DNA of 64,000 bases from the NCBI GenBank assembly GCA_031213475.1, contig JARUPZ010000013.1:9464794-9528793 (forward strand), given 5' to 3'. The notes beneath the pieces were generated by a model. It saw only the letters and a list, made by a program, of their open reading frames with translations, ran no database searches and was not told the DNA's origin. The stretch comes from Nereocystis luetkeana. Lineage: Eukaryota; Sar; Phaeophyceae; Laminariales; Laminariaceae. How positions within the stretch are numbered: the stretch's first letter is position 1; the number at the start of each line of letters is the position of its first letter. Position numbers and translations under genes: made by a program. Positions 1 through 62,875 of this stretch are shown one piece after another.

Positions 1-218
1 TGCCTGTCGTATCCAGTATCATGACATGGCATTGCATCGCCCATCATTGCTGTGCTTGCTGCATAGGTACCTGGTACGTGGCAACGTAGTATCTACGTGG
101 CGTAGCTTTGTGACCACAGAACTTTGTATCTCTTCTAGGCTTCAAGAATCGGCACGGACACTGGTTGTGCTGGATATCGAGTGGTAGAAAGAACGGTTTC
201 ATTTGAAGAACACACACC
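1..218 (+). repeat. E repeat, copy 1 (near full length)
   Basis: Member of a dispersed repeat of about 200-250 bp with at least ten copies here. Shared landmarks are GCCTGTCGTATCCAGTAT near the start, GTGACCACAGAACTT in the middle, and CGGCACGGACACTGGTTGTG followed by a GTCGACGGGTAGAAAGAACGG-like block near the end, closing with an (AC)n run. This copy carries TACCTGGTA at 68-76, where copies at 2560 and 24555 have only TACGTGGC or CACGTGGC. Copies with the upstream flank begin after a T-rich stretch, so on the opposite strand the family would end in an A-rich tail like a SINE. I found no convincing tRNA A/B box, so its class is open. Confidence 0.8.
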
Positions 219-868
219 CCGACCAATGGAAGAGGGAACGAAACAGCGCGGATTCGTCGTACATGGGAAAAAAAATAAAGACGGGGCCGGGGGGGGGGGG
301 GGAAAGAATACCCAACCTGCGGTGTTGCTGCATCCACAAAAACCCAAACCAACCTAACACCCCCAACCCAACCTCCAAAAGAAGCACAATGCGTTGCAAT
401 TTCCTGCGTTGGCGGAGAGGGTTGGAATTCGAAGGAAGCGTCTGGGGACAATGTTTGTTGAGGAATCAACGCATGATCCCAGATGAAACCTGTTTGCGGC
501 AGTCACTGCACTCACCCCCGTTTAAGGCACAAACGAATAATACCATTAAATATGAAGCTACAGCTGTCTGTGCTTGTGGAATTAGACGGGGGGAAAGTGG
601 CGATGTACCAATAATACTGTGCAAGACAAGTAATACTCTGTTGTGCTAGGTAGAAGGGTCAAGTTGCGAGAGAGAGGGGGCTGCTGAAACGAAGGGTGGT
701 AGTACGTACATAGTAGAAGTTGCGCTACGTAGTTGTCCAAGGAGTAGGCGGACACCCAAATGCGTGTTTACTACCAGGTATGATATTGATAGCACTTACC
801 TGGGGGACAGTATAGTAGTAAAAAAAGGCGAAAATATTGTACTATTCACAATGCCTATTAAAAGTGAT
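219..868. other. Spacer, no recognised gene
   Basis: Contains a 14-base poly-G run near 289-302. An open frame of 148 codons (203-649, plus strand) starts inside the E repeat and crosses the G run, which argues against a real gene. TACCAGGTA occurs at 772-780. Nothing else recognised. Confidence 0.5.
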
Positions 869-1081
869 GTGTGCGTGTTCTTCACATTAAACCGTTCTTT
901 TTACCCGTCGACATCCTTACCCGTCGACATCCAGCACCACCAGTACCGATTATTAAATCCTAGAGCGATACAAGTTATGTGGTCACAACACTACGCCACA
1001 GAGATACTATTAATGCCATAGGTTGCCACGAACGCAGTAAGCACAGCAGCAGACAATGCAATGTCATGTACCAGGATACCA
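869..1081 (-). repeat. E repeat, copy 2
   Basis: Reverse-strand copy: the GTGTTCTTCACATTAAACCG end lies at the left and the GGATACC end at the right. The block containing CCCGTCGACATCC is duplicated in tandem (about 905-933). The remainder aligns with copy 1 in reverse complement. Confidence 0.75.
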
Positions 1082-1510
1082 CAGCAGCGGTAGATGGGAT
1101 GAGGGAATGACGGCAGGGTCTCGAATCGGAGCGAAAGTTCGATCGAATTTCAAAATATTTTCATCGACAAGGCCAATTCGAAGAATTAAAAAAAAACATC
1201 TATTAATACTTCCTGAATTTCGAGTGAAGTCGAACGCGAATTCGAAGCAACAAGAGAAACAAAGGTTGACGGTGGGGTCAGTCAATCAATCAATCAGATT
1301 GAAAGGCCCCTTTGTGTGGTTTTCCTCTGGTGGGTTCCCTCTCTATGCGAGGTATAAGGCAGGGGCCATACCAACAGGTGTTTGCTATCCCGCGGAGGGC
1401 ACGACATTGTTTTTTTTTTCTCCGATTCATTCTATGTTTTCGTCTCGATTTGTTTTTTATTATAGCTCGAAGAATCTGGAGTGCTGGGGCGTAAGTATGT
1501 TGTGTTTTTG
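1082..1510. other. Spacer, no recognised gene
   Basis: AT-rich sequence with several TTCGAA/TTCGAATT-like words between 1120 and 1260 and a poly-T run near 1410. Open frames on both strands are short and overlap the flanking E repeats. Nothing recognised. Confidence 0.4.
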
Positions 1511-1692
1511 ACATGCAGTACGAGGCCATGGCATTGCGTTGACTACTCTCCTCGCTGCAATGCCACCCACCGGAGTACGAAGTAGTATCCTGAGGTGTGT
1601 TGTAGTTTTGTGACAATAGAGCTTGTATATATCTCTCTAGGATAAGGAATCTGCACGGACACTGCTGCTGCTGTGTTTTCTGGGTGTCGGCA
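1511..1692 (+). repeat. E repeat, diverged copy 3
   Basis: Recognisable from the order of landmarks: CATGGCATTGCGTTG, then TTTTGTGACAATAGAGCTTG, then CTGCACGGACACTG. Substitutions and small indels are much more frequent than in the other copies, suggesting an old insertion. Confidence 0.55.
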
Positions 1693-2559: not shown

Positions 2560-2930
2560 CCTTTCGTTTCTCTATTTCATAGAATGTGTATGCCGTGCCT
2601 GTCGTATCCAGTATGATGGACATGGCATTGCATCGCCCACTGCTGTGCTTACTGCGTACGTGGCAACGTAGTGTCTCCGTGGCGTAGCTTTGTGACCACA
2701 TAACTTGTATGATATATCTTCTAGGATTGAAGAATCGGCACGGACACTGGTTGTGCAGGATGTCGACGGGTAGAAAGAACGGTCTATTTTTTTTCATTTT
2801 TTTTTTGCTCATCCCATTATTTATCTTCGCCCATCTTCTTTTCTCTCTCCTTCCAACTCGTGACTCAGATCCGGGGTCACATAGCAGGCTCTTCTCCCCC
2901 CTTCCCGCTAATGCGAAGAACACACACAGC
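2560..2930 (+). repeat. E repeat, copy 4, split by a SINE
   Basis: A long and well preserved copy. It starts at a T-rich stretch followed by TTTCATAGAATGTGTATG and reaches the GTAGAAAGAACGGTCTA block at about 2785. It is then interrupted by a minus-strand SINE (2788-2909) and resumes with GCGAAGAACACACACAGCG. Comparison with the uninterrupted copy at 24555 shows the junction falls inside the AACGGTTTAATGTGAAGAAC segment. This copy lacks the TACCTGGTA insertion and has plain GCGTACGTGGC, so it is a useful empty-site reference. Confidence 0.85.
2788..2909 (-). mobile_element. tRNA-derived SINE (family D), 5'-truncated
   Basis: The poly-T left edge is the reverse complement of the SINE A-tail. 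It is followed by the family D 3' body: CATCTTCTTTTCTCTC, then CAGATCCGGGGTCACATAGC. The tRNA-like head is missing. 5' truncation is typical of target-primed reverse transcription, and the fragment sits inside an E repeat. Confidence 0.8.
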
Positions 2931-3440
2931 GTCCGCTCCAATATCTCATCCTAGCAAGATATCATTAATTCATCATACGAAAAACATCATTTGGTCACAG
3001 ACTGCGAGACAGAGAGAGCCCACCAGCAAAAACAAAGAATGGCAAAGTCAGGCGTTACTACATCAAGCAAGTACAAATAAGATGATGCCAGGGCACCGAG
3101 TACGAGAGCACCACAAAAGCAAGAAAGAGCAGGAAAGGAGAAACGGGCAACACATCGTCTGAAATACACAGAATAGAGCTGACGTGAGGAGATGAGAAAG
3201 GCTTTATTATTATTGATATCAGCACAAGCAAGAAGAAGGAGGGGAGAGGTACGAAAGAAAGAGAGATGGGAGGACCGCGGACGAGGCAACACGAAGGAGA
3301 GGAAGAGGAATACACGAATCACATACTCGTATCAAAAACAAGTTACGATTCACAGCAAAAGATGTGAAGGTCAAAATATCAACATTTATTTGCGCATGTT
3401 ATGTGGCCCTTCGACACGAGGATAAGTACGAACTACTATT
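2931..3440. other. Spacer, no recognised gene
   Basis: Purine-rich on the plus strand around 3000-3340 (AGAAAGAG/GAGGAAGAGG runs), which gives long but featureless frames on the complementary strand. Nothing recognised. Confidence 0.4.
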
Positions 3441-3544
3441 TTACGGGGGATATAGTTAACAGGACCAAATATTGTTGGTAAAAATGGTTAAACATATAGG
3501 TGTTTATTTATACGTTAGGTCCTGTTAACTATGGTCCCCCGTAA
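3441..3544 (+). mobile_element. Family A MITE, copy 1 (TA target, Tc1/mariner-like)
   Basis: Hairpin element of about 105 bp. It opens with TTACGGGGG and closes with CCCCCGTAA, with inverted arms of about 30 bp (AGTTAACAGGACC / GGTCCTGTTAACTATGG). The asymmetric core ATTGTTGGTAAAAATGG gives the orientation. The right side is followed by TA; the left flank reads TT, so the duplication has decayed there. No coding capacity, so it would need a transposase supplied in trans. Confidence 0.85.
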
Positions 3545-3895
3545 TAGACGGTTATAAATTACGAAAATATAGTTGTACGATACGAAATAGATAGAAAAGA
3601 CTGACGGTTGCATATATATGTACACGAAAATAAAAATGTAAGTAGAACTCGAGAATGTACCTGCTCAAGCCGCCATTAACATTCCCACTACGAAATAGAC
3701 TTCTCCTGACATTGTCGCGCGTACTCGCTCTATAGTTTTACATTATCTTCGTGCCGAATTCGTGATCTGTGTCAAGGCAGTGTCGGTAGCTCGGAAGCTC
3801 TCGTACATGCATGTAGAGAGCCGCCACATGTCCGTTTCTGTTTGATGTCGATACGATACATTTTGTGCCCTCACCGAGCTTGCATCCCTCGAGAA
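3545..3895. other. Spacer, no recognised gene
   Basis: Unremarkable AT-moderate sequence between a MITE and an E fragment. Nothing recognised. Confidence 0.4.
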
Positions 3896-4919: not shown

Positions 4920-5021
4920 TAGTCGATAACGGAAGAAAGGGCTGGAGGCACGGCCGTAGTGAAGGCACGAACTTTGTATTGCGGGGGACCGAGGACCAAA
5001 AAAGGCCAGTAAAAATACCTA

Positions 5022-5133
5022 TTACGGGGGATCATAGTAAATAGGACCGAATATTGTTAGTAAAAATAGCGCACTATATACCTGGTATATTTTTGTGTGT
5101 ACCGTAGGTCCTATTTAATAGGGTCCCCCGTAA
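5022..5133 (+). mobile_element. Family A MITE, copy 2, with motif insertion
   Basis: Same terminal arms as copy 1, flanked by TA on the right. The core differs from other copies by an insertion that creates TACCTGGTA at 5079-5087, where the consensus has ATATATAGGTTTTT. Confidence 0.85.
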
Positions 5134-5185
5134 TAACACGTAAAAATATAGTTTTCGTGTCACCAGTAGGTCCAATTTACTACTA

Positions 5186-5305: not shown

Positions 5306-5597
5306 TATGGTGGGGAGCGAGTAGCCTGCTGTGTGACCACGGGGGGTCTGAATTGCTATTGCTATTACTACATATTTCTGATTTATGTATGAGTAACCTG
5401 GTATCAAATATTACAGGACAGGACAGGACGAAGAGAAAAAGGAAGGGCGAAGACGGGAAAAAAAAGTGAACAAAACGAAATACCAGGTAGGGGACAAAGA
5501 AGTATACCTACCTATGTGTGGTATTTAAATACAGTAAGAAGTGCATACTGGTGCATACCTGGTCCAGCGTATGGTACCATGCCTGCGTTTTACAATT
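5306..5597. other. Spacer, no recognised gene
   Basis: Contains TACCAGGTA at 5481-5489 and a related TACCTGGTC near 5555. No gene recognised. Confidence 0.4.
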
Positions 5598-5832
5598 CTA
5601 AACCGTTCTTTCTACACCCGGCCGTCGATACCCGGCACAATCAGTCTCCGTGCTGATTCCTCAATCCTACTCGCAGGGAGTTACAAGTTACCTGGTATTA
5701 TGTGGTCACAAAACTACGCCACAGAGATGTTATTATTAATACTGCTGTTCCTGCAGAGCAGGCAGAGTAAACAACGCAACAAAATCGTAGTGGATACGAC
5801 AGGCACGACATACGCATTCTATGAAAAAGGGA
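5598..5832 (-). repeat. E repeat, copy (reverse strand)
   Basis: Runs from TAAACCGTTCTTTC to GACAGGCACGACATACGC in the reverse orientation of copy 1. It carries TACCAGGTA (reverse strand; TACCTGGTA at 5689-5697 on plus) inside ACCACATAACTTG, a different place from copy 1. Confidence 0.8.
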
Positions 5833-8800
5833 AAACGTACCGTACTTTTACTACAAAAGCAGTACTACCATTCACATTAGTACATTAATACTGCTTGTAA
5901 TACTGCTGTTGTAGTGTATCAGTACGTATTGTGTACGACAAATACGCCTACCCGCCCTGCCTGCCTCGTCTTTCATCGTATATATGATATGTACGAATAT
6001 GATAGGATACGTAAGAAGATGGCTGGTACAGCCCTTTCCCACAGCAGCAAACGACAACAGCACAGATCGTAGCGATGGCAAAAAGTTCGACCGTGCCTTC
6101 CTTGGCATGAAGAGCTATGCATAACAAGGCGGCAAAAATAGATGCTGAGCCTCGACGAGAGCTTTCGAGCTATATCCTGGGGTTGGTCGATGCAGACTGG
6201 CTGCTGACGCAATGAGCAATCGAGTGAGGTAGTGGTATCAGTACAACACGCTCGTACGGGCCCAGGGCTGCCGGCCTTTCTATGCTTTTCGTGGCTCTGA
6301 GAGACCTACAACAGCATGACAGAAGAAGCAGTTGATTTCCGCAGAGTACCAACGGTAATGAAAGCCACAACAACACACAGACCATGGTGAATTAAGTCTG
6401 TCTTAGACAGACGTAGAATCCTGGTAGGGTACGAAGTGTATGTGGTACGTAGACAGAACAAGCGGTACTCGATAGGAGGCTCGAAGATGTACTTTGTATG
6501 TACAGTAATATAATAGGTCTGACTTCTGCGCGGTACGTATCAAGCATTGTCTTCTTGTTAACCCTCCGCCGCCTGTACTTTTTCATCATCTCTCTGCTAT
6601 CTGCTGTGTTGTCAGAAGTCAGGTAGCAGGGGGTCATCACCCACACATACATGGATCCTTGATGAAGTCTACCGCTCGCCACTATTATAGCCTATGGACA
6701 TGAATACATGTTTGTGTTAGACAATGTGAAACACGAGCGTGCCACGGACAGTTTCCGAAGCTTACCAGCTCCGAAAATATCGACCGTAGGACCAGACAAC
6801 AGACATCGTCGCTGACACACTTGAAAAAAAAAAAGCCAAAAACAAACCCCACGCGATATCGTATTCGAAAAATAATCGATAAAAAAAATAATAACACAAA
6901 AACTCAAAAACGGGCAGCGTCCGTCACGAGGATTCAGCTTTGTGAGTCCGGCAAATCCAGTCGTGCGGTCCACGCATTGATCAATCTATTGTCTGTCGCC
7001 CACCGTAATGCGTCGAGGGCGATGCTGGCCAGTGCTGGCAGCATCTATCTGTCCGATGTGTATCCCAAGCCATAGGACGGCGGTGACAGCAGTAGTACGT
7101 AATGGAACAGCACTCAGCAGCAGAAAAACTCTACGGTACCTGGTACGGCTGTACTACAACAGATGTTTCGCTGACCGTGTACAGCTGTATACAGAGGCCG
7201 CTCTGTGCCTGAACAGACATTTTGAATAAGGTATATACGGGTTTTCTTCTCCAACAACAAAAACTACACTGCACTTCGCTGTTCGTTTTCTGGCCTTCTC
7301 GTGTCTCGAGAGCAGGGGCAGCTGTGAGCTGGTTCAAGGTACAAAGAGAAGGTCAAACCCTCTTCATCCAGGGCTACAGAGTATCGCCAGGGCATAAACA
7401 TCGCACCGCTACTGACGGTAGATCAACGCTTTTGCCCAAGGAAGACGGAGCGACACACAAAAAGCAGGGACATAAATAGTATACATGTGATGCTGCTGAT
7501 GACTTCCTTGGCCTTACGTACAAGATTGCATCGCCGTACGAACGAGTGGAACCCTCTGTATCTACAGTCAGTTTTCCTCGGTGCATGTGTGTGTGCATAC
7601 CTCAGATCCCGGAGGACGTGGCGAAGAACACTCTGCAGTGTTTTTGGCGGACAGGTGCTGCAGCAGAAGAAGAACGGCAGAGCTGCTCCGAACTCCTGCC
7701 CAAGGAAGCGTGTCCTGCTTCGTATCCTCTCCTTAATACTATGATGCTTCACCGATGCACCCCTCTTGTGGATGAGAGGCCAACGCGGTTTGTTTGCTGG
7801 CATTCACCGCGAGAGGCAAAAGCTGAGGGCTACGAGGATATCTGTCAAGCGGCAGCAAGAAGAACAGAAGACGCACAGCGAGAGGGTCTACGACACATTC
7901 TTTCATGGTTGGCTGATGAGAGAAAGAAAAGCACTGGATTTTATCTCAGGGGTTGCCCATACCCCGTGCCAGGCACGTCGTAACGTCACAAACATCACAT
8001 TCTTCCACGTATTGTTTGTCGTTCGGAAAATCTGCCAGAAGAATCTTTTCTCAAAACGACGACTGTACGACCAGGTGCCTACAACACTCGCATTGTACCA
8101 GTAGAATTTATTTGTCGTAAAAGGTAAAATGGTAAAATGTGTCGAGGTATACGGGTGTACGCGCCTTTCATCTATCATTTTGTAGGGCTCTGAGTTTATC
8201 ATCCATTGTACTCTTTCATGGCCACTATCGACAATAATGGTACATACATTCCGTGAATTCCTTCGGAAAAAGTATATCGGGCTGCAGGTACTTATTCCGT
8301 ACCAGGTGCGCGCTGGGACGGGTATAACAATTTACGACGGTTGTCCGCCGTGGTTTACGACTCTCGTAGGGAGGGGTGTGAATTCCTCAGCGAAAGTCCG
8401 ATTTTTGGATTTCAGGAAGTTTAAAAATAAAACGATCAATCCAAAACAAGTAAAGTGTGTGAAAAAAAAGGGGCCATTTTTAATTTAGAGTAATATCGAC
8501 CCAGCGAACCGAGCGAAAAAAAAGAAAACCCGTGACCCTGTGTGTGCCGGCGTTTTCAAATGCCCCACGACTTCTATCGCCTAATGATTGCCCCAATCCC
8601 TCCCGCAGAGGGTTGGGGAGGAGTAGTAAGTTGTTGTAGCTTAGTTAGGCTACTGACTGTCCTGTAAGGGAGGTGAACCGCCAAAACAAAAAACTAAAGA
8701 ACACAATATTGGTACGACATGTACAGTACACCGTTTTTTGCGATTCCGATACCATCACCTGATGATACGTACTACCTGATACATACGACGACACAAAATT

Positions 8801-9321: not shown

Positions 9322-9610
9322 TGTTCTTACATGTGTGTGTGTTCTTCACATTAAACCGTCCTTTCAACCCGTCGACATCCAACACAACCAGTGTCCGTGC
9401 CGATTCTTCAATCCTATTAATAGAAGAGATACAAGTTGTGTGGTCACAAAGCTACGCCACAGACAGAGATACTACTACTACTGCTGTACGGTGCCACGTA
9501 CCAGGTATGCAGTAAGCACCGCGGTGGGCAATGCGATGAATGCCATGTCATAATACTGGATACGACAGGCACGACATACACATTCTATAAAACAGAGAAT
9601 AAACAAGGAA
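9322..9610 (-). repeat. E repeat, copy (reverse strand), long
   Basis: Extends from GTGTGTGTGTTCTTCACATT to GACAGGCACGACATACACATT and on into an A-rich run. It carries TACCAGGTA at 9499-9507, at the same TA as the insertion in copy 1 (68-76), so the two copies either share one event or descend from one inserted copy. Confidence 0.82.
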
Positions 9611-21105: not shown

Positions 21106-21109
21106 TACC

Positions 21110-22010
21110 AGGTATGGGTATTTGCCAAAATCAGGTATACCTGACCGCTTTTCGGCCAAAATCAGTTACATTCTAAAAACAAGTACAAAACACACCCCAG
21201 GAGCCCTGCTATTGGCCAGGCTGACATCGGAACTGATTTTGGCTCGAAAAGGCCAAGATATATCTGGTTTTTTTTCCACTCTGTCTAGCTTTCAACTGAT
21301 TTTGGCCAATAAGAGAGGCAATATACGTGCACTGTTTTCTCTCTCCGTACGCGTCTGCCCTCCCACGGTTGAAAATTATTATGTACTAACTTATAAACTC
21401 TGTACTCGTACGTTGTACCTCGTACGTGAAAGTACGTATTTACAAGTGCATATATGCGTACGCTAATTGTTTCACTTTTCTTCGTTGGGGTGTGCGTCGT
21501 GCTTCAGTTAGTTGTTGTGATGTGTACAGCTGTGTTGTTTTCTATGGTGGTCACAGAGAGAGGGCCCTACAGCACCACATGGTCTTTATCTGGACCACCC
21601 CGCGCAGAGGTGGTCTCAGGTTTGGTATGGCAAGATTAATTCTTGCCGAGCAGGCGGTTCCGCGTGGACGGTCTTTAAGATTTTTAGGTGTCAAGGGAGG
21701 GCGGGGCGCCAGAATAGATACTCTCACTTGTTGGCGCCCCCGCCGTGGGAAAAAAATGAAGCCTATTAAGAGTGACTCTCTGCAGGTCCAAGTGAAGCCC
21801 GTGGTATCTATACCCTAAAAAAGGAGACAAACCGATTTAGATTTTGGAGGCCATGTGGCACGCTTCTCTTTTACCGGACTTTCATGGACAGAACATCGCT
21901 CGTGGCGCGCGTTTTTTACTTGGTTTTAGTACGTAACTGATTTTGGCTCAAACGGATCATCAGGTATAATAACTGATATTGGCATTTATTTGCCCTATAT
22001 ATATCCGGTT
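21110..22010. mobile_element. TIR element of about 0.9 kb, non-autonomous
   Basis: Terminal inverted repeats of about 65-70 bp. The left end has TTTGCCAAAATCAG, TATACCTGA, then GCCAAAATCAGTTAC followed by TTCTAAAAAC. The right end has the inverse (GGTTTTAGTACGTAACTGATTTTGGC, TCAGGTATAA, CTGATATTGGCATTTATT). Extra CTGATTTTGGC words at about 21235 and 21294 act as subterminal repeats. TACCAGGTA (21106-21114) sits at the extreme left end. An open frame of 130 codons (21426-21818) has no transposase resemblance. A hairpin with GGGCGGGGCGCCA/TGGCGCCCCCGCC arms lies at about 21699-21747. Confidence 0.7.
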
Positions 22011-22094: not shown

Positions 22095-22103
22095 TACCAG
22101 GTA
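22095..22103. other. TACC(A/T)GGTA motif, example site
   Basis: One of 31 exact sites in the window. Starts of the others: 68, 772, 5079, 5481, 5689, 7137, 9499, 21106, 22920, 22927, 22951, 25191, 26035, 28378, 28999, 29579, 31026, 47629, 47813, 47858, 48494, 50490, 50497, 51140, 51755, 54211, 60909, 60916, 61615, 61622. Interpreted in the findings as a candidate transposon excision footprint. Confidence 0.75.
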
Positions 22104-22652: not shown

Positions 22653-23255
22653 TAGGGTACGTATAGACGAGACGTATTACGCAGCTTGCAGAGCTGAGTA
22701 TCAACTCGAACTCACAGCTCGAACTCTCACAGCTCGAACTCACAGCTGACGAGGCATTTCATAATTTTATACGAGGTATTATTAATAATTAGGCTGCAGA
22801 AAAAAAGATTTCTGTGAAGAAAGCGAATAATAGCTGCCCAAAGGTTTCAAAAAAACCCATCATAGTTATTCCGGTACTACTTTGACAGGCGCTCCTTACA
22901 TCACATACTCTGTATGTGATACCAGGTACCAGGTACTACTACTGCTGTAGTACCTGGTACGAAGTAGCCTTGTACGGCTCGCAGAACAAAGCATGTATGG
23001 TGTCACTGGCGTCTTTCCCTTTCTTTCTCTTTGATACGACCATGCCAGTCAACAGGTTTACTTCTTCTTTCTACCACCATCCACCGTCGACATATTCAAA
23101 GCATTGATCGGCCCGATGTACGCGACCTGAAGGAAAATCGTATGGTTTCTTACATTGACCGCCTAGATCCCTATGCAATAGAATAACGCCTCCGCAAGAT
23201 ATACGAACAATTCCCACAACTCACGAACCACGATACCACGATCGCTAAAACCAGC
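22653..23255. other. Spacer with two adjacent hairpins
   Basis: ATCACATAC-TCT-GTATGTGAT at 22900-22920 is followed directly by a second palindrome at 22927-22959, built from TACCAGGTACTAC and GTAGTACCTGGTA. A small CAGCTCGAACT repeat lies at about 22705-22745. No gene recognised. Confidence 0.5.
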
Positions 23256-25132: not shown

Positions 25133-25589
25133 TATTACGATTATGCTTGCTTGCCATCTGACAATGTGCAGTGTTGTTCTAAAAAACGACTACCTGGTAT
25201 CAATAACAGAAAGTAAGTAAGTGGAGAACTCTCCAGAGCAAAAGCGCGGCAGTATCATACGACAAACCAAATACTATTATTACGGGGGACCATAGTTAAT
25301 AGGACCAAATATTGTGAGTAAAAATGCTTGAATATATAGGTTTTTATGTATACCACAGGTCCTGTTAACTATGGTCCCCCGTAATAATAATGCATGACAA
25401 GGACCCTCTTCTCTCCGGGGCGTGTCGAGAGGAGTGGCGCAAGAACGAACTGAAACAGGAAAACGATTTTATTTGTCGTAGGATACTGCCGCGCTTTCGT
25501 TCTGGAGAGTTCTTCGCTTTCCGTTATTATAATATATAATAGTCGTTTATTAGAACAACACTATACATTGTCGGATGGCAAGCGTAATA
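25133..25589. mobile_element. Long-TIR element with a nested MITE
   Basis: Inverted arms of about 125 bp: left 25133-25268, right 25462-25589. Matching blocks are CTTGCCATCTGACAATG / CATTGTCGGATGGCAAG, GTGTTGTTCTAAAAAACGAC / GTCGTTTATTAGAACAACAC, GAACTCTCCAGAGC / GTTCTGGAGAGTTC and CGCGGCAGTATCATACGACA / TGTCGTAGGATACTGCCGCG. The loop contains a complete family A MITE. The left arm carries TACCTGGTA (25191-25199), which the right arm lacks. No coding capacity. Confidence 0.85.
25280..25384 (+). mobile_element. Family A MITE, copy 6, nested
   Basis: 105 bp, ends intact, flanked by TA on each side. Located in the loop between the two arms of the long-TIR element, so it is younger than that element. 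Confidence 0.93.
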
Positions 25590-25893: not shown

Positions 25894-26205
25894 AAATACG
25901 CATCAGATAGATACAACAAAAAAGTAGTTCCACATTATGAAATACTTACCCGCATATTACGCTGCTGCTGCTGTGGACATACATACCAGGCACATTTATT
26001 ATAGACATTGAGGAGAAGATCGTCTTTTATTAAATACCAGGTATAAGCATATTATTGCTGTTACAGCATTGCTGCAGTACCTGTACCACCTGCTTTGGGG
26101 GGGGGGCAAAACATGCATTGTGGAAATGTTACCCTGACCTCCAGAGATTTTCTTCATGATTCAGATCAACATCATCACCGTATCAAGTTTATTTGTCGTA
26201 CGACA
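25894..26205. other. Spacer, no recognised gene
   Basis: TACCAGGTA at 26035-26043 and a poly-G run near 26097-26106. Nothing else recognised. Confidence 0.4.
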
Positions 26206-28353: not shown

Positions 28354-28482
28354 TAGCGTTCTCCAAAACTTGAGCATTACCTGGTATGTTTTTATCTGGC
28401 ACTGTCTCACGGGCGGTCCTATGCCGTATGTCTGGCCTGAGCTGTGTGGCTTAATATGCAGACCTGCTCAGGGATACTATTA

Positions 28483-28586: not shown

Positions 28587-29116
28587 TCTTAACATGTGTG
28601 CCCGTGAGATCTAAGGGAAAAAAACACAGACGAAAATTTACTGGCGCGTGCGTACCCTGGTACAAAATTAGGCATCTCGCACTATTGTAATAGTAAAACA
28701 AGGTGAAATCTTCTCATTGTCCACTCACGCACTCACGCCTACCAGGGAAAAAAAAAAAGTTCGAGCGCCCCCCACGCGCTCCAGGGTGAACGGATCTCGC
28801 CGAGACCTCGACCAATGTGTCCGGCCGAGCTTCTCGTGTCTGGGTCTGGGACCGGGGCACCTAGGGTTTTGTCGAAAGGTGGGTAGGTAGGTGTTCATAC
28901 GGCCGAAAGGGTACGAATGATTCGCAAACATACGCACACGTATTCGTATACTTACTGCTGATGTTCATTGTTACCAGGCACCAGGAACCAGGAACACGTA
29001 CCAGGTAGGTGCGTACGTACGCAGCAAGAGTAACAATGCAGCAACAAAACAAGACAGGCAAACCGAAGCTAACCCAAACAATAACGAAAAAAAAACACAC
29101 ACACACACACACACGA
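28587..29116. other. Spacer, no recognised gene
   Basis: Includes TACCAGGTA (28999-29007) preceded by several ACCAGG words, and an (AC)n run at about 29095-29114 that abuts the LINE below. Nothing else recognised. Confidence 0.4.
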
Positions 29117-29239: not shown

Positions 29240-29588
29240 GCTAAGTGAAAAACAAACGACCGAGTTTGTGTATTTGGGCGGGGCTATCAGCGCAGATTGG
29301 ACGGGCAGAAGTATCGAAGTAACGCGTCGACTCCAGAGGGCATGGGCATGCTTCGGGCGGTATAAGAGGGAAATCTATGACCGCCCGGGTATGCGCCTAC
29401 GCCTGAAGGTGCGAATGCTGAGAGCCAAGGTGATCAACACGTTGCTCTACTGTTGCGTTACTTGGAGCCCGAGCAAGACTGATTACGGTAGGCTACGGGA
29501 GGTCCCCCACATGATGCTCCTCCGATGCATCGGCTGGCGAAAACGAACGCGTGAAAACACATTCTATCCTATCTATGCTACCTGGTAG
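29240..29588 (+). pseudogene. LINE type 2 RT C-terminal remnant
   Basis: Encodes the region after the RT catalytic core: TTEFVYLGGAISADWTG, EVTRRLQRAWACFGRYK, LRLKVRMLRAKVINTLLY and LREVPHMMLLRCIGWRKR. An in-frame TAA (GCCGGCTAAGTG) lies where the long copy has GCCGGCCAAGGG, and the frame is lost near 29560. No RT active site is present, so it cannot be functional. The nearest homologue in this window is 49400-49730. Confidence 0.8.
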
Positions 29589-30815: not shown

Positions 30816-31063
30816 GTTGTACTATACTATATATAAAACTCGCACCACGATCTGCTGCTGCTGCTGCTGCTGCCGCCTGAAGCATGTGTGGCCGTTAGGT
30901 AATCGAGATACTGTGCCCGCATCGTCAGCGTAGAGCATAGCCCACAGTCTCTGGGCCTCTTTATCATTCCCCTGTCCGTCCGCATAGGACTCCGCATAGG
31001 ACCGAATAAAAAAAAGAAAATATCGTACCTGGTAGGTTTTTTGTTTTCACCTCAGCTCCTACT

Positions 31064-47609: not shown

Positions 47610-47667
47610 GCTCCCCTGACGCCAACTCTACCTGGTATGCTCCCCTGACGCCAACTCTACCTGGTGT
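47610..47667 (+). repeat. Tandem duplication, 29 bp x 2
   Basis: GCTCCCCTGACGCCAACTCT plus ACCTGGT(A/G)T, twice in tandem. The first unit contains the exact TACCTGGTA (47629-47637), the second TACCTGGTG. Confidence 0.93.
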
Positions 47668-48600
47668 GCCATATGAAGGGCTGGTGGCCAACCAGTTTGA
47701 ACAGACACCACACTATGTACCGGTAGCAGGTGAGTAAGCCGGTAAGGCACGCCACCGCGACGCAAGAGATTTGGTTGTTGAGTATACCTGTGGTGTATAT
47801 ATATATAATGTATACCAGGTATAACATACCGCAGTGAGTGGCAGAGTGGTAGAAACATACCTGGTATCTGACACCAGCAAACTTTTCAACGCGATGGGAA
47901 TACACTCAAAGCTTGCCGAGGGAAGAGGGGGGGTCATATTGTGTGTATGACACGTATGAATATCGTACGCAGGTAGTGAGTACACTGCGAGGCGCGTCGC
48001 TCGCATATATTATGTCAATCAAAGGAACAGTATTGCTGCGCATTCGTGGGCGGCTCCAAGCGTCAGGAGGCCATCCCTGCGTTCCAAGCGAAGAAAAAGC
48101 TGGCAATCTCGGACCCCAGACGGGATATTCTGAAGGTTGGACGCATGTAGAGCAGTATTCACGTATGACTCCAGTGCTACGAACGAAACGAGCGAAGGAG
48201 CTCTAACATAGCTGCGCCCCCCTGAAGAGCTGCGATACGTACATGCAGCCACACGAAAAATTTACCCTCCAGTACATCTCATGATTAGCTATAGATCGGT
48301 CGATGGAGGTTGACCTAATCATACTGGTACTTTACGTATCACCAACCGGGTATTATTAGTGCATGTTTCGCCGCCGTTTATCTGATCACAGGGCCACCTA
48401 ACCTGCTGGCACTGCTGCTGCTGCTGCGCCTGCTTGATGTCAGTAGGGAAAAACAAACGAAACCTGTGCAGCAGTAGTTTCCCTCGCGTTTCATACCTGG
48501 TATGCGGAACGGCTACAACATCAGCAGTATGTACACGTACCTGTCCTGTTCCCTGGCACCAGTGTATATATCCGAAGGGTATGGGTGGGGGCACTTTAAA
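47668..48600. other. Spacer with several TACC(A/T)GGTA sites
   Basis: Exact sites at 47813, 47858 and 48494. No gene recognised. A phrase TGTTCCCTGGCACCAGTG... GTATGGGTGGGGGCAC at about 48544-48595 recurs in diverged form at about 51431-51482, flanking the LINE on both sides. Confidence 0.4.
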
Positions 48601-50263: not shown

Positions 50264-51132
50264 TGCGCTCCATTCTTTGGAACCCCAGTAACTAGCATGA
50301 TGCCACCCGGGCAACTCTGCGTGTCTGTATGCTTCCAGCGCCTGCCTTTCGTAATATGTTTCCCCCCGCCCGTTTCGGCCCCTTCTTTTGTTTTTGTCCT
50401 TTTTTTTCTTCTTTATTTCTCTCCCTGTTGTACCTCTTTGTGCCTCTGTTCGTGTCTTCCGTTTTGCTTTTTAGCTTTCTGCTGTGACATACCTGGTACC
50501 AGGTATCTGTTTTTGTTTTTCGCTCTGCTAGTCTCTTTTTTGCCTCCCTGGTGTTCTTGGTGGCGGAGTGCGTATGCTTGCTGTCTCTGTTCTTATCTCT
50601 GTTCTACACCCCTCGCGAAGCGTGCGAGCCTGCAATCTGCGAAAAATTGCCCGTTCTCTTGTGTGTTTCCTTTCTTGATTTCTTGCTTTATATTTTTTCC
50701 TTGCCTGGCTTGAACGTTTTTTTCTCTCTCTTCCCTCTTGGATGTATGTGTGTCTTTTTCGATTTTGATTTCGATTTTTCGACGTCGAGTTGTTATCTTC
50801 ATCCTGTCTATTATTTTTTCTGGGTAGTATGTGGTCTTCTCGGCTTCTATGGCGACTTTGTACAGCGTACCGCATGTATCTGATACGTACGTACGTCGTG
50901 CGCGGACTTCCCTAGTAATGTTTTGTTTGAGGTGTACTACTATAGAGAGCACTACTACCGTAGATGTGCTTCAGTTATCATGTATGTGTACCACTCTTTC
51001 TTCTTTGTTCTTTTTTATCACCGAGGTATTTCTTCCGCTCCAGAGTTATTGTAAGCCTGCTCTACGACCACGGACTGCATTGATTGTATTAATTGTGGCG
51101 ATGAGTTAATGTCAGAACAACAACAAACAGCA

Positions 51133-51772
51133 ACAGTACTACCAGGTACTAACTATACCACAGGTGTGTCGTACAGCAGATCGCTATATGGTCACTCCAC
51201 CAGAGCTCTACCTGTCCGCACAGCAGGTCCGCAATAATGTGGTGCCCGCACTTTTCAGGGTAAATAGGTCGAGTCATCCACCATACGTCCCGTAACAGTG
51301 CGGTACCGCACTATCCCGGGTCACAGAGCGAGGGGTCCCACTTCACATACGAAGTGAAGTCAATTCCGCCTGACACACCACCGCACTATTGCGGAACGAC
51401 CACTCCTGTATATACACACAAAACTCTCGTACGTTCATGTTCCCTGGCGCCAGCAGATGTATGCAGGGCATGGGTGGGAGTTCTTAGTTCACTATCGATA
51501 TTAATATTAAGATTAGTAGTTGTGGTTTATGTTTGAACGACGTACGTAAGATTCTGCAATAAATATTGCTTTTATATTGCTGTTGGCCGTTTCTCACCAA
51601 GATCTACATCTTGATGTTCAAAAATGAGCCCCTTCAGCCTGTCCTATAATTGAGGCCTCATTTTTTATGTCGTGTGTAGATTATACTTCCTTATCGGAGA
51701 GTTTTTTCCCCCGAAAAATCCAAGCAATAGTATACTGGTACATGGTGTACCCTGTACCAGGTAATATAGAAC
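51133..51772. other. Spacer, no recognised gene
   Basis: Contains TACCAGGTA at 51140-51148, just after the LINE tail, and at 51755-51763, just before the microsatellite. Nothing else recognised. Confidence 0.4.
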
Positions 51773-53888: not shown

Positions 53889-54223
53889 GTCAATAATAGC
53901 AATATGCACTTACTACGAGCCGTTCAAAAAACTGGGGATACACGATGTCACAAACAAAACGGCGCATGTAGGGGTAGAAATAGCGTGCGTGGCGGCGTCC
54001 TCTCTTCCACCTCGTGCCCTCGGGGGCGGGCATTCTCGGATCGCGCGCGCCCAAGCCTGGGGCTTGCCACATTATCTGTGTGCCACATTATCTGTGTTTC
54101 TCGTGCGGTGTGGGCGTGCCAACTAGAAGCACACCTAACCTGAGCAACCCGTAGAACCTCATCAGACCACCCTTCAACAACGTACAGCATAGTGCAGGTT
54201 CCTTTTTGTATACCTGGTACGAG
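53889..54223. other. Spacer, no recognised gene
   Basis: TACCTGGTA at 54211-54219 abuts the next C element. A phrase CCTCGTGCCCTCGGGGGCGG near 54009 resembles TCTCGTGCCTTCGGGCGGGC near 12014 inside the putative 0.4 kb TIR element. Nothing else recognised. Confidence 0.35.
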
Positions 54224-55061: not shown

Positions 55062-55069
55062 TCGTCAAA

Positions 55070-55140: not shown

Positions 55141-55142
55141 AC

Positions 55143-56030: not shown

Positions 56031-58964
56031 CCTTGGCTGCTATCACCGACAACATCGGCGATCGATCTGGCGCGTCGGCTGCACGGACGTATACATCAGC
56101 AGGATCGAACCTACCAAGGTCAAATAAGCCAATCTACGTAGTATACGCATCTATTTCCTCTTGGAGTATAGCTATTCATAGTTCGCAGGTCAGCCCCGCG
56201 ATGCCTCCGAAGGGGTGGGGTCCTCCTAACAACGGCAAAGGAAGGCATCCTGACTGAGTGCCCATGCCACACGTCACTTGAGATCAAGAAGAGTCACAAG
56301 CTCGCCGTACAACGCCTGCAGCGGGACCACCGCACTCGCGATCACCACCCGCTGGCCCTATTGTTTCAACAGAATAGAGATCCCACCATAGAGCTACAAA
56401 GTATCCTACCATGGTACTCAGTAAGCGTTTTGGTCAGCATTGGATATGACCAACAAGATACACTGTAGAATAATAGGCTCACGCATTACAGTACGTAAAA
56501 AGAGCAGTTGATAGGAGCGAAAGGTTCACGTTTTGAAGGATACTACGTACGAAAATTGAAACAAGAGATCGTGTCCAGCGGCGAGCGATACTCTAAACCT
56601 TACCGGGTAGGTGTTACGCTATGCTCAAGGTTGGTCAGAGAGGCTGCCGAGTTAATGCGTTGCAAGGTTTGCTCGGATTGGACGCATAAGAGGTGGTACG
56701 TTGAATAACTTGTGCGACTACACATCAGGCTATCCGGCAGAACCTCTACGTTGACTTGTTGTACAGGTGCACGCAGAGACAGGTCAAGGGCTAATAATTT
56801 CTTATGGTGGTTCTGAATCTAAGCATCGAGCTCGGGGTTCCTTTGGCACGTCCGTCGGCGCGCTTACGCTACACAGCACTCGGGCGACTGCGTCCGTTCC
56901 ACGGCCACCCACCGGCCGTCCACGAGATCAATAGAACCACGGTAATTGCTCACCGAGAGTCGCTTTCCCGCATGAGAGGGGACGTTTTCCGGTGAACGGG
57001 TCGGGCGAGTGGAGCAGTTACGCGGAGGAGGTGAGGGCGGCAACGATTGAGACACGGGCTACCGTAAGGGTGACACTTTTTGTAGCCAAACCGTTTCTCT
57101 GACCGATGAGGCTTCTCCTTGAGAGCGCTGAGAAACTGCTCATTCTGGTGGTGGAAAATGGAAACATCGTCCTAGTTGAGTTAGCGTACCGTTTTTTTTA
57201 TTCCTATGGCTTAGAATTGATTGTTCATCGGGGCTAAGCATACTAATGCCGAGACCTGTGGGGGTGTGTGGTTTTGCCACACGACAACGCGGCACCCCTT
57301 GTGACACCGACCGCCTTCCTGCCCACCTGCAAGTGGACCTCCGTCTTGCTGCTTTTCTTGAGCGGAAAAACCATCAGCCTTGGGGACAGTATGACCGGTG
57401 CTACCGTAGGGGGGTGTGATGCGAATATTTTCATGTAAAAAAAGGACACGGCAGCAGAGGCCATCGGTGTTGGGATTCACTCGCGTTGAGGCACGAGTCG
57501 CAAGCATATCTAAAGTAGCTGGCACGACCCAGTTGATGCGTATATGGACCCCACTTATTGGTGCTCCAGCGGCCGCAGGCTCCTTTTGTCCGGAATCCCA
57601 TACGCTGACGTTCCGGCGATCTCAGGCAGCGATGCTTGATTGCGGGTGATGACGACTGAGATTTCCTGGGCGCCGATGCTCCACTGTGCCTATTTCCTTT
57701 CCGACGAACTATGACAAGCGTCACACAGAAAGATGTACAAGAGACCGAAATCCTCTTCCTGTTGATTCGGCAGCGCACCACGACATCGCCCTTCCGCAGA
57801 AAAAATGTGACACGTACCTTGCTCAGCGTTCGAGGATGTTAGTGACCCCTTCCCTGACTGCCGTGCCGTGGCAAGAGAAAAAGTGGCGCCCAGAGCCTGA
57901 AGCGACCAAACAAGGAAAGCACACACGCTTTTCTTCGCCAGCGAGGGTGATGATGGTGTGGTAGAGGATTCAGCTGTGGCCCCACGTATAACAACTTCCT
58001 CGTGTTGACGGTCGCGATCGCCTTCGACGCAGTCAGAAACGAGTACTCCTCAACGTGCCCATTCAGCCCGGAGGTGGGTTTTTTGCCGTATTATTGTCCC
58101 GTGTAGTGCCGCCGTTCACTTCAAGCAGCACCAATACTACTTACACGTACCCTGCTCTGTACGCCCTTGAAGTACGCCTGGTAATAGCGGATGCGTGTGA
58201 TGTAGCAGGAAGGCCGGTCTGTCAGTCGGGGCCGCCACCCAAGCCGTCGTCAAAATTGGAGGCCACCTTCGGCGAGGCATTGGCAGGAGGGGTGAGGACG
58301 CCTGACGCAGAGGCCGCGAAAGCGCTGCCCTTCGGTGGGCGTGCCCCCCCCTCCCTCCCGGTAATACTCGGCGACATTGTGAGACGTGAATTTTCGTTGC
58401 CGGAGCACCACTGCTGGACCCCGGCTCGGTCCAACTATTATGTACCCTCGTATATGTAATAATATTGATATCAGGTCTCGTTCTTGGTCGCATTACATCA
58501 AACTCTCGAGCGTAGGAGGTGGCTCGGTATTATCCACTTACAACCCAAGCACGGTCTTGCGTGCGGGCACCTTGCTCAGTGGCTCGAACTTGACATCAAA
58601 CTCGATGGAACGGCTTGATGAGACGGAAGCTTTACGAAGTCGCCCGGGGCGTTCTCTGCACGGCGTGGAACCGCTTAGACCGAGCGCGAGAGTGTGAGAG
58701 CGTGAGAGCGGGTGAACCCGCCGAGACCCGACACGCTCGGGATTTAGGGGGGGGGGTGAATTACGTGAATTACCGTAGTTGGTGCGTGCGCTCAGACAAG
58801 ATGGCACCAAAGGCAGAGTCAGTGGTGGAGTACTAAAATAGAGGTTTCGCATCCGACCAAACAAAATCTGACTGGCAGGGGTCCTTAAGGGCACAGAGAA
58901 ACTATGTGCCAATATCGTTGGAATACAGTTATGAATAGTGTGTGGTATGCTTAATAGTTATTGA
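56031..58964. other. Low-repeat block of about 2.9 kb, no recognised gene
   Basis: None of the A to E families occurs here. Frames of 60-134 codons on both strands carry no recognised motif; one short frame (56508-56708) ends with CKVCSDWTHKRWY, a Cys/Trp cluster too short to classify. Confidence 0.4.
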
Positions 58965-59100
58965 CCCGGACGGGGGGGGGGGGGTGTACTCGATAGGAGG
59001 TGTGTACTCGATATCATGCATGGCCGTAGTCGTATGACCATAGACCCTCACACCCCTACAATGCCGGGACGGAGCATGTCGGGGATTCACCGACCAGGCA
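58965..59100 (+). mobile_element. LINE type 1 3' UTR-like fragment with poly-G
   Basis: G run (about 58972-58984), then GTGTACTCGATAGGAGGT (the GTGTACTCGATA word is doubled), CATGCATGGCCGTAGTCGTA and TGACCATAGACCC, then ACGGAGCATGTCGGGG. Closer to the 55.9 kb fragment than to the 31.6 kb LINE. Confidence 0.65.
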
Positions 59101-60908
59101 GACATTGCTGGGAAGTCGACGCGGAGATCACGGAGAGTTGGGTGGTCAGTTTGCGTGGTTCTCAAGCAATCTTCCAAAAAGGAGAATCGGGCAGACGCGC
59201 AAAATCTAGCAGCCCTTTAAGCCATGCTCAGAACTTGATAGGCGCAGGGCGCGGGGCAGGGAAAGAGCGAGAATGATAGCAGGGGACTGGCTTACCCCTC
59301 GGCAAGGGTTGCAGTTTTTGGGTCAATATTTCATGACCGATGGAGCCCCCTCATTGAGATCCATGCGATGCATTTGCTCGTATATTTCTTTCAGAACTAG
59401 CGCGTAGAAAAATCGGTCGGGTTTCCGGAAAAACCATCATCGAATTCGTGTTTTGGGTGAGATACAAAGGCACCGCACCTGCGCGAAGCCTTGCTGAACT
59501 ACGCTGCGTAGCCCCCTCCCTCTCCCAAAAGAAGCAGTACCTGGTGTAGCGTGTTTCATGTAACGCAATGGTAAACCAAAAAGCTGAAGGTTTCAAGATG
59601 GGAATCGTTCTGGCATTTGGAAGGTATCACAGCAGTGAACATTTCCTCAGCTTTTTGGTCATCTTCTAAAATATCCGACCCGTGTTCAAACACTTCCATA
59701 AACAAGCCCATATTAAATGTCAGATAGATGGCGAATGGGCCATATTCGTGACCACCATCACTGAAACAGGACCTGACGGGCAACTCTTCTCCGCCAAAAT
59801 GGTACCCCGCGCGCTCGGTCGTTGGCGTAGCACGACTTTAGACACCCACGCAGGCAGCGTTTTCTCGGGTCCAACCAACCTAGGACTCGCGTTCTCTGTC
59901 GGCAGCACTCTTTACTCCGTCGGGTTTTCGTCGTGACATCCTGGAGCAAGCGGAAGGGTACTTGGCATGGGGACAGCCTTCACTAAACAGCGTGGACGGA
60001 ACCAACTGTGTGGCCTCTTTTTCCCGGCCGGTGTTTAGAACAGGCGGGCTGATACCCGCAACCGGGTCATATATCGGCGACGTAGTTGCCAGCAAGCTCG
60101 GGGGTGCAAACAAGGTGACAATGGGAAGCCGCGTGGAAACATATTGCGTGATGGTATCGGCCTGATCATTTCGTCGGCGAGAACCCTCCTGCTGTAGCGA
60201 TCAACCGACATGCAAGACGGACCGGGCAAGACGATCATGTACCTCCTCGAAGAAGGTGTGCCTACCTCGCTGAAGATTCGTGAGAGTCACAAGATCCGTG
60301 TGTAGAGGATCGGGGTCAGGCTGTTTGAAACATGTATTTCAAGGGACGGAGGAGGTGCTGCACAGCGCCTCCAGCGCAAAGAGAATGTTTTGTTGGATTG
60401 TATTATCTTCGATCTTTAGCGGGATGCATCGATATGGATGGGGTTCGCGTAGCGCGCTGCCTGCGCACTGTGTCCACCGCCTTCCGTAGGTAAAATATGG
60501 TACGTAGGCGTAGTGCCGACGGACACCTGCTCGCGACAGGGTCAGACTTCGATGAATAGGCGAGAGCGGACTGGAATGATACGCATCGATTCTGACACTG
60601 AGTTAGGGAGGTGCCATATCCCTGGAAGATGCGAGGAGGGAGGTGCGGCACGGAACAGGAGAGAGATCAGGATCGGGGTGTACCTTAGGAGCGTTGAGTC
60701 GCACTACAAGGGGTGCAATCGTTTTTCAGCGCTCGGTTTTCCAGAACGGGAAGGTTGCTAATACCGAACAAGGGGGGGGGTTTCGGGGAAATCCGGTTGA
60801 GATCCTTCCGAACATATATATGATGTTCTCCCTTGTCGTTGTCGAGAGAAAATGAGCGCAAAAAACGATCGCATCCCGCTGCCAAATCGACGCTCTTCTC
60901 TGCATACA
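59101..60908. other. Low-repeat block of about 1.8 kb, no recognised gene
   Basis: Two overlapping antisense frames at 59556-59936 look compositionally balanced (plus: MFKHFHKQAHIKCQIDGEW; minus: FMEVFEHGSDILEDDQKAEE), but neither belongs to a family I know. A G run lies at about 60772-60781. Nothing else recognised. Confidence 0.4.
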
Positions 60909-60924
60909 TACCAGGTACCTGGTA

Positions 60925-61344
60925 CACGCTAAGCAACAGGATATCCTGGGCACTTCGAGCGCGCTTTTTTAAAGTCACTGACAAGAGTGGGGTGGAGGGG
61001 CGTGACCCGAAGCGGGTGACCGCTCGATTACAACGCTTACCGGGATGGTGTACTACTCGCTGTGGGTAATAATGCTTCACGCATCTTCAGCAACATAACG
61101 GCAAGTTGACGAAGTTTTTCTTGCTACCCATCGGCGTCAGGGGAGATCGCCCACCGCCGAGCGAGAGAGCCAAGGTCGACCCCAAACGACGCCCTTGTTG
61201 TGGGCCCGGCAGTCACGTGGTCATTCGCCTCCGCCTGCAGCTATAGGATCGGTATACCTCTGTCCGTATTTTGCAGGACTTACTGTGATACTGCAACACA
61301 GCGGTTTTAGTTGTCGAATGTGTTTCGGCCCTCGAGCATTATTA
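60925..61344. other. Spacer, no recognised gene
   Basis: Follows a double motif TACCAGGTACCTGGTA (60909-60924). Nothing else recognised. Confidence 0.35.
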
Positions 61345-61591
61345 ATGTTCAAAGTCTAAATTTCGACGCGAGGCGACGAGGGAAGAAAGTGGTGAACCCA
61401 TGTCGCGGCGAAAAATCATTCCAAGGCACGAACCGTAGTGGGCAGATGGGAGGAGAGTCTGCTGCTGTGTGTCGCCGGATCTGGGTTTCGACCATATTAT
61501 ACATCAATCATGCAATAGGAAGGAGAGAGAAAGGAAGGCCGAGAGTGAAGACTGGAACGAAAATAAAGGAGAAGAAAAAAATGATGCTGTA
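61345..61591 (+). mobile_element. tRNA-derived SINE (family D), decayed, head missing
   Basis: Recognisable blocks: TTCGACGCGAGGCGACGAGGGA, AGGCACGAACCGTAGTGGGC, GAGTCTGCTGCTGTGTGTCG, GCCGGATCTGGGTTTCGA, AGGAAGGAGAGAGAAAGGAA and an A-rich tail. Many substitutions and indels relative to the other copies. Confidence 0.7.
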
Positions 61592-62875
61592 GGTAGATGC
61601 AGCCCATTGGCATGTACCAGGTACCAGGTATACCTGGTGACCGTTCTTACGTTGTACTCCAGTCCAACATTGGCTTGTTGATTAGTTTGTCCTTTCTTTG
61701 CAGGTGTTTTCCTACAGTAGTAGCTCACTTACTTGTGTAGCTCATCATGCGGTAGGAACTACTACTACTGTACGTATAGAGTAGATTTGTGGTATGTAGG
61801 GCGAGACCATGAATACTTATACCGGTGTATGATGGGGGGTGCGCCTGCCATACCGTATCCTACCGCTGCTGCCTGGTGGGCCGACCAGAACCGAGTGTCA
61901 TCGGGGCAAATAATTCGGTAGACAATTGGAAAGCGGTATACCTGGCATTTGCTATGTGCATGCCATCGTGAACGCCACACCAGATACAGCTACGTACAGA
62001 TTCTGAACTTGGTGTCTGGCCTCTCGCTGCGAATACTTCCACCTATTATTGTGGCAGCTTACTCTGTCGCAGGTTTGCGTATGCACGAGTGGGTACGACA
62101 AGAGTACGAGAAATTCACCTGCTGCTGGTAAGCGGGTTAGACTTTGACACTATATGTACGTAAATGTAAGAAGCATTTTACAAGCGTGTATTATTTATCC
62201 GGACAGTGACGTAGCCTACTGCACCAAAGACAGCAAAATTAAAAGAAGTACGAACACTGTTTTTTTATCTACGCCAGTACGTAGCCTTACGGCTGCTAAA
62301 GATTTACAACATCGTTTGATGTGAAGCAGTACGCCCAAATGCGGAGAGAGCTTATGCGTCAATCTACACGCACAACAGTGCGTACTCGTACACTCATAAG
62401 ATGCGCGTTGTGCTTTTGACCTAACTGACAACCGGGTGTGTACATGATTCACAACACAAAAAAACAGAAACTACAAACTCGATGAACAAGGTCTCGGGTC
62501 TCGACTGAGCGGCCTGCATTACACGGGAGGAACAGGTAGGAGGTGTTATTACCCTACGTTCCCGACCAACACGAGCTCTACAGAAAGATGGCGTACGGCA
62601 TTACATATACGCCCGCTTGCACGCCCAGAAGAATCGATCTTCGTGGAGGATTTGCTGTTTTGGTTTGAGGTGGAGGATGGAGAATGGAGAATGGAGGATT
62701 TCCGTTTTCCGGGAGTTGCAACACCCGGAAGGCTGTTGAGCTTCGGGGCTGTATAACGAATTTGGTTCCATGATTTGTATATCAAGTCGTGTCTATGGCT
62801 GGCTGGGCTTGGGTGTACAGTAGGAGTTGCGCTCCAGCTCAGGACGTTGCTGCCCGAACAACCCACTCTCTTATC
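61592..62875. other. Spacer, no recognised gene
   Basis: Contains the triple motif cluster at 61615-61639 (two exact TACCAGGTA sites followed by TACCTGGTG). No gene recognised. Confidence 0.4.

Follow-up and report, generated by a model that had tools for sequence, protein, structure and literature searches.

The word TACCWGGTA (W being A or T) is repeated in very large numbers in the genome of the brown alga Nereocystis luetkeana, and in this work we analyzed it starting from a stretch of 64,000 nucleotides of contig JARUPZ010000013.1 (positions 9,464,794 to 9,528,793 of the forward strand), which is referred to here, at its full length, as the window. As judged from alignments with paralogous copies, the word marks a net insertion of CCWGG plus a TA at TA dinucleotides. 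We consider it probable (about 0.8) that it is the excision footprint of a cut-and-paste element that targets TA, has CCWGG ends and is cut with a 5-nt stagger. A preliminary description of the window had proposed this origin; its case is strengthened by the net insertion at TA, by the excess of the word and by the symmetry of the target, and it remains incomplete in that the parent element with terminal inverted repeats (TIRs) and a matching transposase were not found in the material searched.

The window contains 31 exact copies of the word between positions 68 and 61630, the number given in the preliminary description, against a mean of 0.50 and a maximum of 2 in 100 dinucleotide shuffles (the description had put chance at about 0.5) and an expectation of 0.6 under an order-3 Markov model (Poisson P 9e-42). 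These copies occupy 27 separate loci, whose flanks are unrelated; four of the loci are overlapping pairs, TACCWGGTACCWGGTA, with a common TA. The form with C or G (S) at the centre, TACCSGGTA, is present once. In the whole assembly (465,085,209 bases, 1,987 contigs) there are 182,395 copies of TACCWGGTA, one per 2.55 kb, and 1,744 of a reversed-pattern control, and the genome-wide excess proposed as a check on the footprint idea is therefore present; TACCSGGTA occurs 10,882 times against 1,899 for its reversed control. When k-mers 7-11 nt long whose flanks vary were considered in a 264-kb sample, formed by the window and 20 stretches of 10 kb from the same genome, TACCWGGTA, its sub-words or its extensions were at the top of every length. 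A second check that had been suggested, the ratio of A to T at the centre, carries no information, because TACCAGGTA and TACCTGGTA are mutual reverse complements and represent one word on opposite strands; the informative contrast is W versus S. Within the window the sites leave a gap from 31.0 to 47.6 kb, a stretch that is mostly GC-rich and TA-poor (P 0.015 for so long a gap under random placement on TA sites).

The nature of the word was examined by a paired test that included the window and 29 loci of the same genome (L010-L013, L016, L018-L040 and L049); the overlapping loci L014, L015 and L017, and the loci L041-L048, selected for their DDE_1 matches, were left out. Each site was compared with its paralogues both intact and collapsed to TA by removal of the 7 additional bp; all remaining TA-N5-TA sites outside simple repeats served as controls. 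Paralogues were available for 19 of the 83 single footprints (64 had none), and the empty TA fitted better at 18 of these, both forms fitted equally at one, and the word was better at none. In contrast, among the 325 control sites with a paralogue (719 of the 1,044 had none) the intact form was better at 270, the two were equal at 11 and the empty form was better at 44 (Fisher 7e-14). The additional 7 bp, CCWGG and the duplicated TA, can be seen at the junction in the alignments of the sites at 5079, 9499 and 29579. Presence and absence at TA, which the preliminary description expected to see between strains, is observed here between paralogues. No spanning paralogue was found in this test for the 22 members of tandem pairs; in an earlier test in which whole pairs were collapsed, paralogues were obtained at L020 2184, L033 6408 and window 50490, of which only the first aligns cleanly. 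An unbiased scan for indels in the pooled sample, in which the word appeared at 13 of 654 places (two of these at length 7), was noisy, with merged places and misplaced gaps, and was replaced by the paired test. A single insertion site shows opposite centres in two copies of a repeat read in the same orientation, A at L025 831 and T at window 9499, which fits a mismatch that can be repaired either way; a later transversion is also possible.

Several footprint sites lie in a family of miniature inverted-repeat transposable elements (MITEs). Its members are about 115-120 bp long and have near-perfect terminal repeats (CTATTACGGGGGACCATAGTTAA...), and in several of them the footprint repeatedly falls on the AT-rich TA at the centre. 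The same central site is occupied at L026 6298 and L049 2721, and a footprint lies 2 bp off it in L030 5762.

A palindromic target preference is of the kind shown by DDE transposases. To describe the target, the word was collapsed to TA at the 73 single sites of the 264-kb sample, and these sites were compared with 15,330 other TAs. A further TA was located 7 bp away on either side at 34 of the 73 sites (background 11.4%, P 6e-14) and 4 bp away at 26 (14.5%, P 6e-6); TA at 2 bp was also raised (21 of 73 against 12.8%), and A was found at position -1 in 47% of footprint sites against 26% of the background. TA at 6 bp was lowered (7 of 73 against 27.1%), the background at this distance being inflated by GTA repeats, which were left unmasked. 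The symmetry of the target context is that of an integrase-type enzyme and would not be expected for a bound motif or for slippage.

The word also decays, mostly by transitions. In the same sample, and with the centre omitted, there were 89 one-mismatch neighbours against 51 expected, which corresponds to a change of about 5% per site, and transitions represent 29 of the excess 38. From the outer to the inner position pair, the mismatch excess was 18.4 (T/A), 7.1, 10.3 and 2.2 (innermost C/G). The genome-wide excess of the S-centred form, 4.7%, is an independent figure and is near the decay estimated from the other positions. Assuming independent sites and a decay of 5%, the corrected total of scars is about 287,000. 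The predominance of transitions agrees with unconstrained scars, despite the weak decay of the innermost C/G.

The mechanism that we propose is modelled on the 3-nt overhangs of Sleeping Beauty; from the scar we reconstruct a 5-nt stagger and the repair of an A:A or T:T mismatch, and likewise the element and its transposase. A cut-and-paste DNA element would integrate at TA, duplicating it; on excision, cuts would be made at the 3' ends of the element and 5 nt inside its 5' ends, and each flank would keep a 5-nt 3' overhang, CCAGG (or CCTGG). The overhangs would anneal except at a central A:A (or T:T) mismatch, repair would yield A-T or T-A, and the net outcome would be the change of TA into TACCWGGTA. 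Given that the number of copies would stay roughly constant and that a scar would be written with each end-joined excision, the scars could reach the hundreds of thousands with only a few copies active for a long time. We incline slightly towards a history in which a low-copy lineage with a 5-nt stagger wrote the approximately 180,000 readable scars (about 287,000 with decay) in the brown-alga lineage and left few copies, its scars recreating the TA-N5-TA target.

Known systems share part of these features. Sleeping Beauty leaves the footprint TAC(A/T)GTA and prefers palindromic AT-rich targets; the pogo/Tigger/Passer elements target TA; and the internal eliminated sequences (IESs) of Paramecium are TA-bounded insertions present in very large numbers, whose excision is scarless and leaves one TA. 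The insertions studied here are likewise bounded by TA and very numerous; unlike the IESs, they leave a scar of 7 bp. According to excerpts of the papers cited, cuts or footprints span 3 nt in Sleeping Beauty, as 3' overhangs (PMC7827188), 2 nt in ISY100 (PMC2170065), 0-3 nt in ZB, with 2-4 cited for its group (PMC7913693), 0-4 bp in Passer (PMC9976928) and 1-4 staggered nucleotides with diverse scars in the plant mariner elements Ppmar2 and Osmar5 (PMC9632168). Sleeping Beauty and the word have in common the TA target with its duplication and a quasi-palindromic scar with a W centre from mismatched 3' overhangs; they differ in the length of the overhang, for which we propose 5 nt, and in that the DDE_3 profile has no match in this genome. 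DDE_1 transposases, several with open frames, are present in this genome, as for pogo/Tigger/Passer; in contrast, the range of Passer footprints stops short of 5 and the one family terminus that can be read here, TACAGTGGGGGGCCC, is not TACCWGG. The plant mariner elements resemble the present case in their TA-rich targets, staggered cuts and short scars, and differ in that their scars are diverse, whereas one 5-nt scar dominates here. The piggyBac pattern, with a TTAA target and seamless excision in an excerpt of the source (PMC7351741), was discarded, since the present insertions are at TA and keep a 7-bp scar. Two properties of the IS630-Tc1-mariner group are found: integration at TA with duplication (collapse better at 18 of 19 sites) and a palindromic AT-type target preference (73 sites). 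The word works like the footprint of a TA-target cut-and-paste element; membership in Tc1/mariner or pogo is not claimed, because the ends and the enzyme have not been seen. Among the matches listed in open-licence PubMed Central there was no report of TACCWGGTA as a footprint, and the listed papers containing TACCAGGTA, or TACCTGGTA together with 'transposon', looked in excerpt like primer, barcode or other unrelated content.

A number of observations weigh against an excision footprint with a 5-nt stagger. The extra length is not always 7 bp, since the site at 68 shows +11 and those at 5689 and 47398 show +10, and the alignment at the junction is loose at L018 9564, L019 4663 and L028 6649. 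The 19 informative sites are partly dependent: by reading of the alignments they belong to about 10 repeat families, with about 5 of them from a single MITE and about 5 from another repeat family. The weak loss at the innermost C/G, part of an uneven decay measured on small numbers, may reflect a mild constraint on this core; in a pure fossil the decay would ideally be flat. Classification by hand of the 59 tandem pairs listed for the plus strand gave equal centres in 40 (P 0.009), and some tandem pairs may be slippage copies. The Tc1/mariner and pogo footprints or cuts described in the excerpts span 0-4 nt and none has a 5-nt stagger, and a dominant 5-nt scar would be new relative to these elements. 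Furthermore, no filled element was found in the material read or in the families searched. The 109 TACCWGG ends without a following TA in the window and L010-L040 (some of them overlapping) have no common terminal repeat. Short filled forms with an interior of 7-37 bp, in a pattern that excludes interiors starting with T or ending with A, are not in excess (384 against 369 for the control). The search of the genome with the DDE_3 (Tc1/IS630) profile gave 0 matches; that with DDE_1 (pogo-like) gave 28, of which 8 loci were cut out and 4 extended (L047 on one side only), and none of these 8 has a gene-enclosing pair of CCWGG ends with matching repeats. Filled copies are not abundant; about 0.08% of the genome was read, and a low-copy parent would escape.

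Other candidates for the parent element were considered and not accepted. Three dispersed pairs among the 109 ends lie inside larger repeats. The 9-mers were rejected as the ends of an element with the TIR CCWGGTA..., their flanks having no shared extension, and the TIR CCWGGCAC, to which by eye about 19 of 100 ends among those listed correspond, had no shared sequence in the loci examined. A 722-bp candidate at 60909-61630 with similar ends (score 13) is improbable and was not taken up: the similarity is mostly in the tandem footprints themselves, its interior repeats only via a piece of a common repeat, and the score was reached by 18 of 50,000 random cross-locus draws, from which about 0.2 are expected among 520 pairs. 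Several of the eight DDE_1 loci hold single TACCWGG words without a following TA, and two of them, L041 (38) and L043 (1222), share the terminus TACAGTGGGGGGCCC / TACAGTGGGGGGCCCTATATAGTGCAGGGG of a pogo-like family, which is not TACCWGG; in L043 this terminus starts at the TA that ends TACCAGG...TTCCAGGTA. In the window, Pfam searches of 10 open frames, of the six frames of 31501-46400 and of four of the six frames of 48001-62900 (with X at stops) gave reverse-transcriptase pieces only. Viral contigs carry TACCWGGTACCWGGTA at 9 loci, at 8 of which the matched tandem pair represents the sole copies, and the viral locus L002 has 3 copies in a 2.3-kb stretch with local repeats. In blastn at 1e-5 none of the 9 loci matches the window, and two MITE words of the window were found in 0 viral contigs; these occurrences were taken as chance and a viral source of the word was rejected.

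The scars could also have been written without a large element, if an enzyme were to put the 5-bp CCWGG directly at TA with duplication of TA, as a micro-insertion that propagates itself. The failure to find a filled element in the material searched and the frequency of tandem pairs (15,917) speak for it; we nevertheless regard it as unlikely. The symmetric target preference and the TA duplication are what a DDE transposase would produce, and we know of no integrase or transposase that inserts a 5-bp duplex. In addition, end joining of 3' overhangs, such as those of 3 nt in Sleeping Beauty (PMC7827188, in excerpt), would naturally give a quasi-palindrome whose centre varies. Programmed DNA elimination, in which TA-bounded elements would be removed in the sequenced stage in the manner of ciliate IESs and leave CCWGG behind, would account for many scars with no filled copy seen, but a decay of about 5% per site together with scar-free paralogues indicates old fixed scars that are not recut each generation; to our knowledge such elimination has no precedent in brown algae, and we judge it very improbable. 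A shade less probable still is a palindrome kept by selection, either bound by a regulator or as a CCWGG methylation word. The word is a short palindrome, bacteria are known to methylate CCWGG, and the innermost C/G is little decayed in the sample; in contrast, copies of one repeat differ in whether they carry the word at a TA, decay does reach the outer TA and the remaining C/G, mostly by transitions, and the flanks have no conservation beyond the symmetric AT-type preference. A conserved motif would be retained among copies, and at 18 of the 19 sites the word is missing from the best paralogue; its absence from most paralogues therefore argues against a conserved bound motif.

The tandem pairs bear on the remaining explanation, growth of a 7-bp unit by slippage as in a microsatellite. 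Genome-wide, the tandem form TACCWGGTACCWGGTA occurs 15,917 times and its reversed control twice, while the average frequency with which a TA is hit would predict about 1,208. Since each footprint has the form TA-N5-TA, which is favoured as a target, the excision reading accounts for part of this excess. Slippage would favour equal centres, which are in excess among the 59 pairs listed, and it could account for part of the tandem pairs; as the origin of the word it has next to no credibility, since tandem pairs number 15,917 and copies of the word 182,395, the majority of sites are single and lie at unrelated TAs, and 19 of the 59 pairs have unequal centres. These unequal pairs show A-then-T in 14 cases and T-then-A in 5 (P 0.06), a bias for which slippage or biased mismatch repair are possible causes.

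If the word is an excision footprint, a genome with one copy per ~2.5 kb would be a record of past transposition, whose scars alone can show which targets were preferred, how excisions were repaired, how mismatches were resolved and at what rate over time, and each scar would be a potential strain marker; footprints are otherwise usually met singly in assays or as rare relics. One may then ask what kind of element could be so scarce in visible copies after leaving 180,000 scars, and, if the 5-nt stagger is true, the known cleavage geometry of TA-target transposases widens.

Table 1. Footprint sites and copies of two inverted-repeat families in the window. Footprint sites were identified by exact word count, plus paralogue alignment where mentioned, and their strand is '.' throughout.
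Feature	Position	Remarks
TACCTGGTA	68..76	preceded by TAGG (TA-GG-TA-CCTGG-TA); +11 bp relative to empty paralogue
TACCAGGTA	772..780	
TACCTGGTA	5079..5087	within MITE copy 5005-5150; 8 of 11 other aligned copies exactly 7 bp shorter
TACCAGGTA	5481..5489	
TACCTGGTA	5689..5697	+10 bp relative to paralogues
TACCTGGTA	7137..7145	
TACCAGGTA	9499..9507	exactly +7 bp relative to paralogues (e.g. 2600-2700, minus strand)
TACCAGGTA	21106..21114	
TACCAGGTA	22095..22103	
tandem TACCAGGTACCAGGTA	22920..22935	
TACCTGGTA	22951..22959	
TACCTGGTA	25191..25199	paralogue 25479-25583 without CCTGG; more indels in flank
TACCAGGTA	26035..26043	
TACCTGGTA	28378..28386	adjoins MITE copy, just outside
TACCAGGTA	28999..29007	
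TACCTGGTA	29579..29587	paralogue 49693-49810 plain TA, 7 bp shorter at junction; separate 4-bp difference nearby
TACCTGGTA	31026..31034	in decayed MITE copy; by eye same TA as 5079
TACCTGGTA	47629..47637	ends a unit of a 29-bp tandem duplication
TACCAGGTA	47813..47821	
TACCTGGTA	47858..47866	
TACCTGGTA	48494..48502	within open frame 48434-49105 bearing reverse-transcriptase fragment
tandem TACCTGGTACCAGGTA	50490..50505	
TACCAGGTA	51140..51148	
TACCAGGTA	51755..51763	ten bases upstream of microsatellite 51773-52109
TACCTGGTA	54211..54219	
tandem TACCAGGTACCTGGTA	60909..60924	
tandem TACCAGGTACCAGGTA	61615..61630	followed by TACCTGGTG at 61631
MITE copy	3430-3560	
MITE copy	5005-5150	
MITE copy	11431-11567	
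MITE copy	22532-22669	
MITE copy	25264-25400	
MITE copy	28233-28369	
MITE copy	28466-28602	
MITE copy	45794-45930	
MITE copy	46181-46317	
MITE copy	47126-47270	
~100-bp inverted repeat	4823-4922	
~100-bp inverted repeat	12677-12776	
~100-bp inverted repeat	20772-20871	
~100-bp inverted repeat	22321-22420	
~100-bp inverted repeat	23259-23358	
~100-bp inverted repeat	42655-42754	
~100-bp inverted repeat	54270-54369	

The window is eukaryotic in look. It has 113 open reading frames of at least 100 aa, none above 234 aa, and many MITE-like repeats; no tRNA and no Rfam family at the gathering threshold were found in it. The open frame 48434-49105 bears a reverse-transcriptase fragment (RVT_1, 3.6e-11), and two related stretches of about 1.2 kb lie 20 kb apart, at 29117-30318 and 49291-50483; the fragment and the pair are probably decayed copies of long interspersed nuclear elements. 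The inverted-repeat family of about 100 bp included in Table 1, the best copies of which have the ends TTAACCC(C)TTT...AAAGGGTTAA, is piggyBac-like by the resemblance of its TTAA ends only. A nearly pure (AGT)112 microsatellite occupies 51773-52109, and another TA-bounded word, TACAGCAGTA, which may be related to microsatellites, occurs 23 times against 2 expected in the 264-kb sample. Finally, in agreement with a brown alga as the source, a search of the genome for the EsV-1-7 motif gave 1,710 candidates; all of the 150 that were scored are matches, and 0 of 14 control genomes had any. According to an excerpt of the source, this motif has proliferated in brown algae and is otherwise known mostly from giant viruses (PMC12477816).

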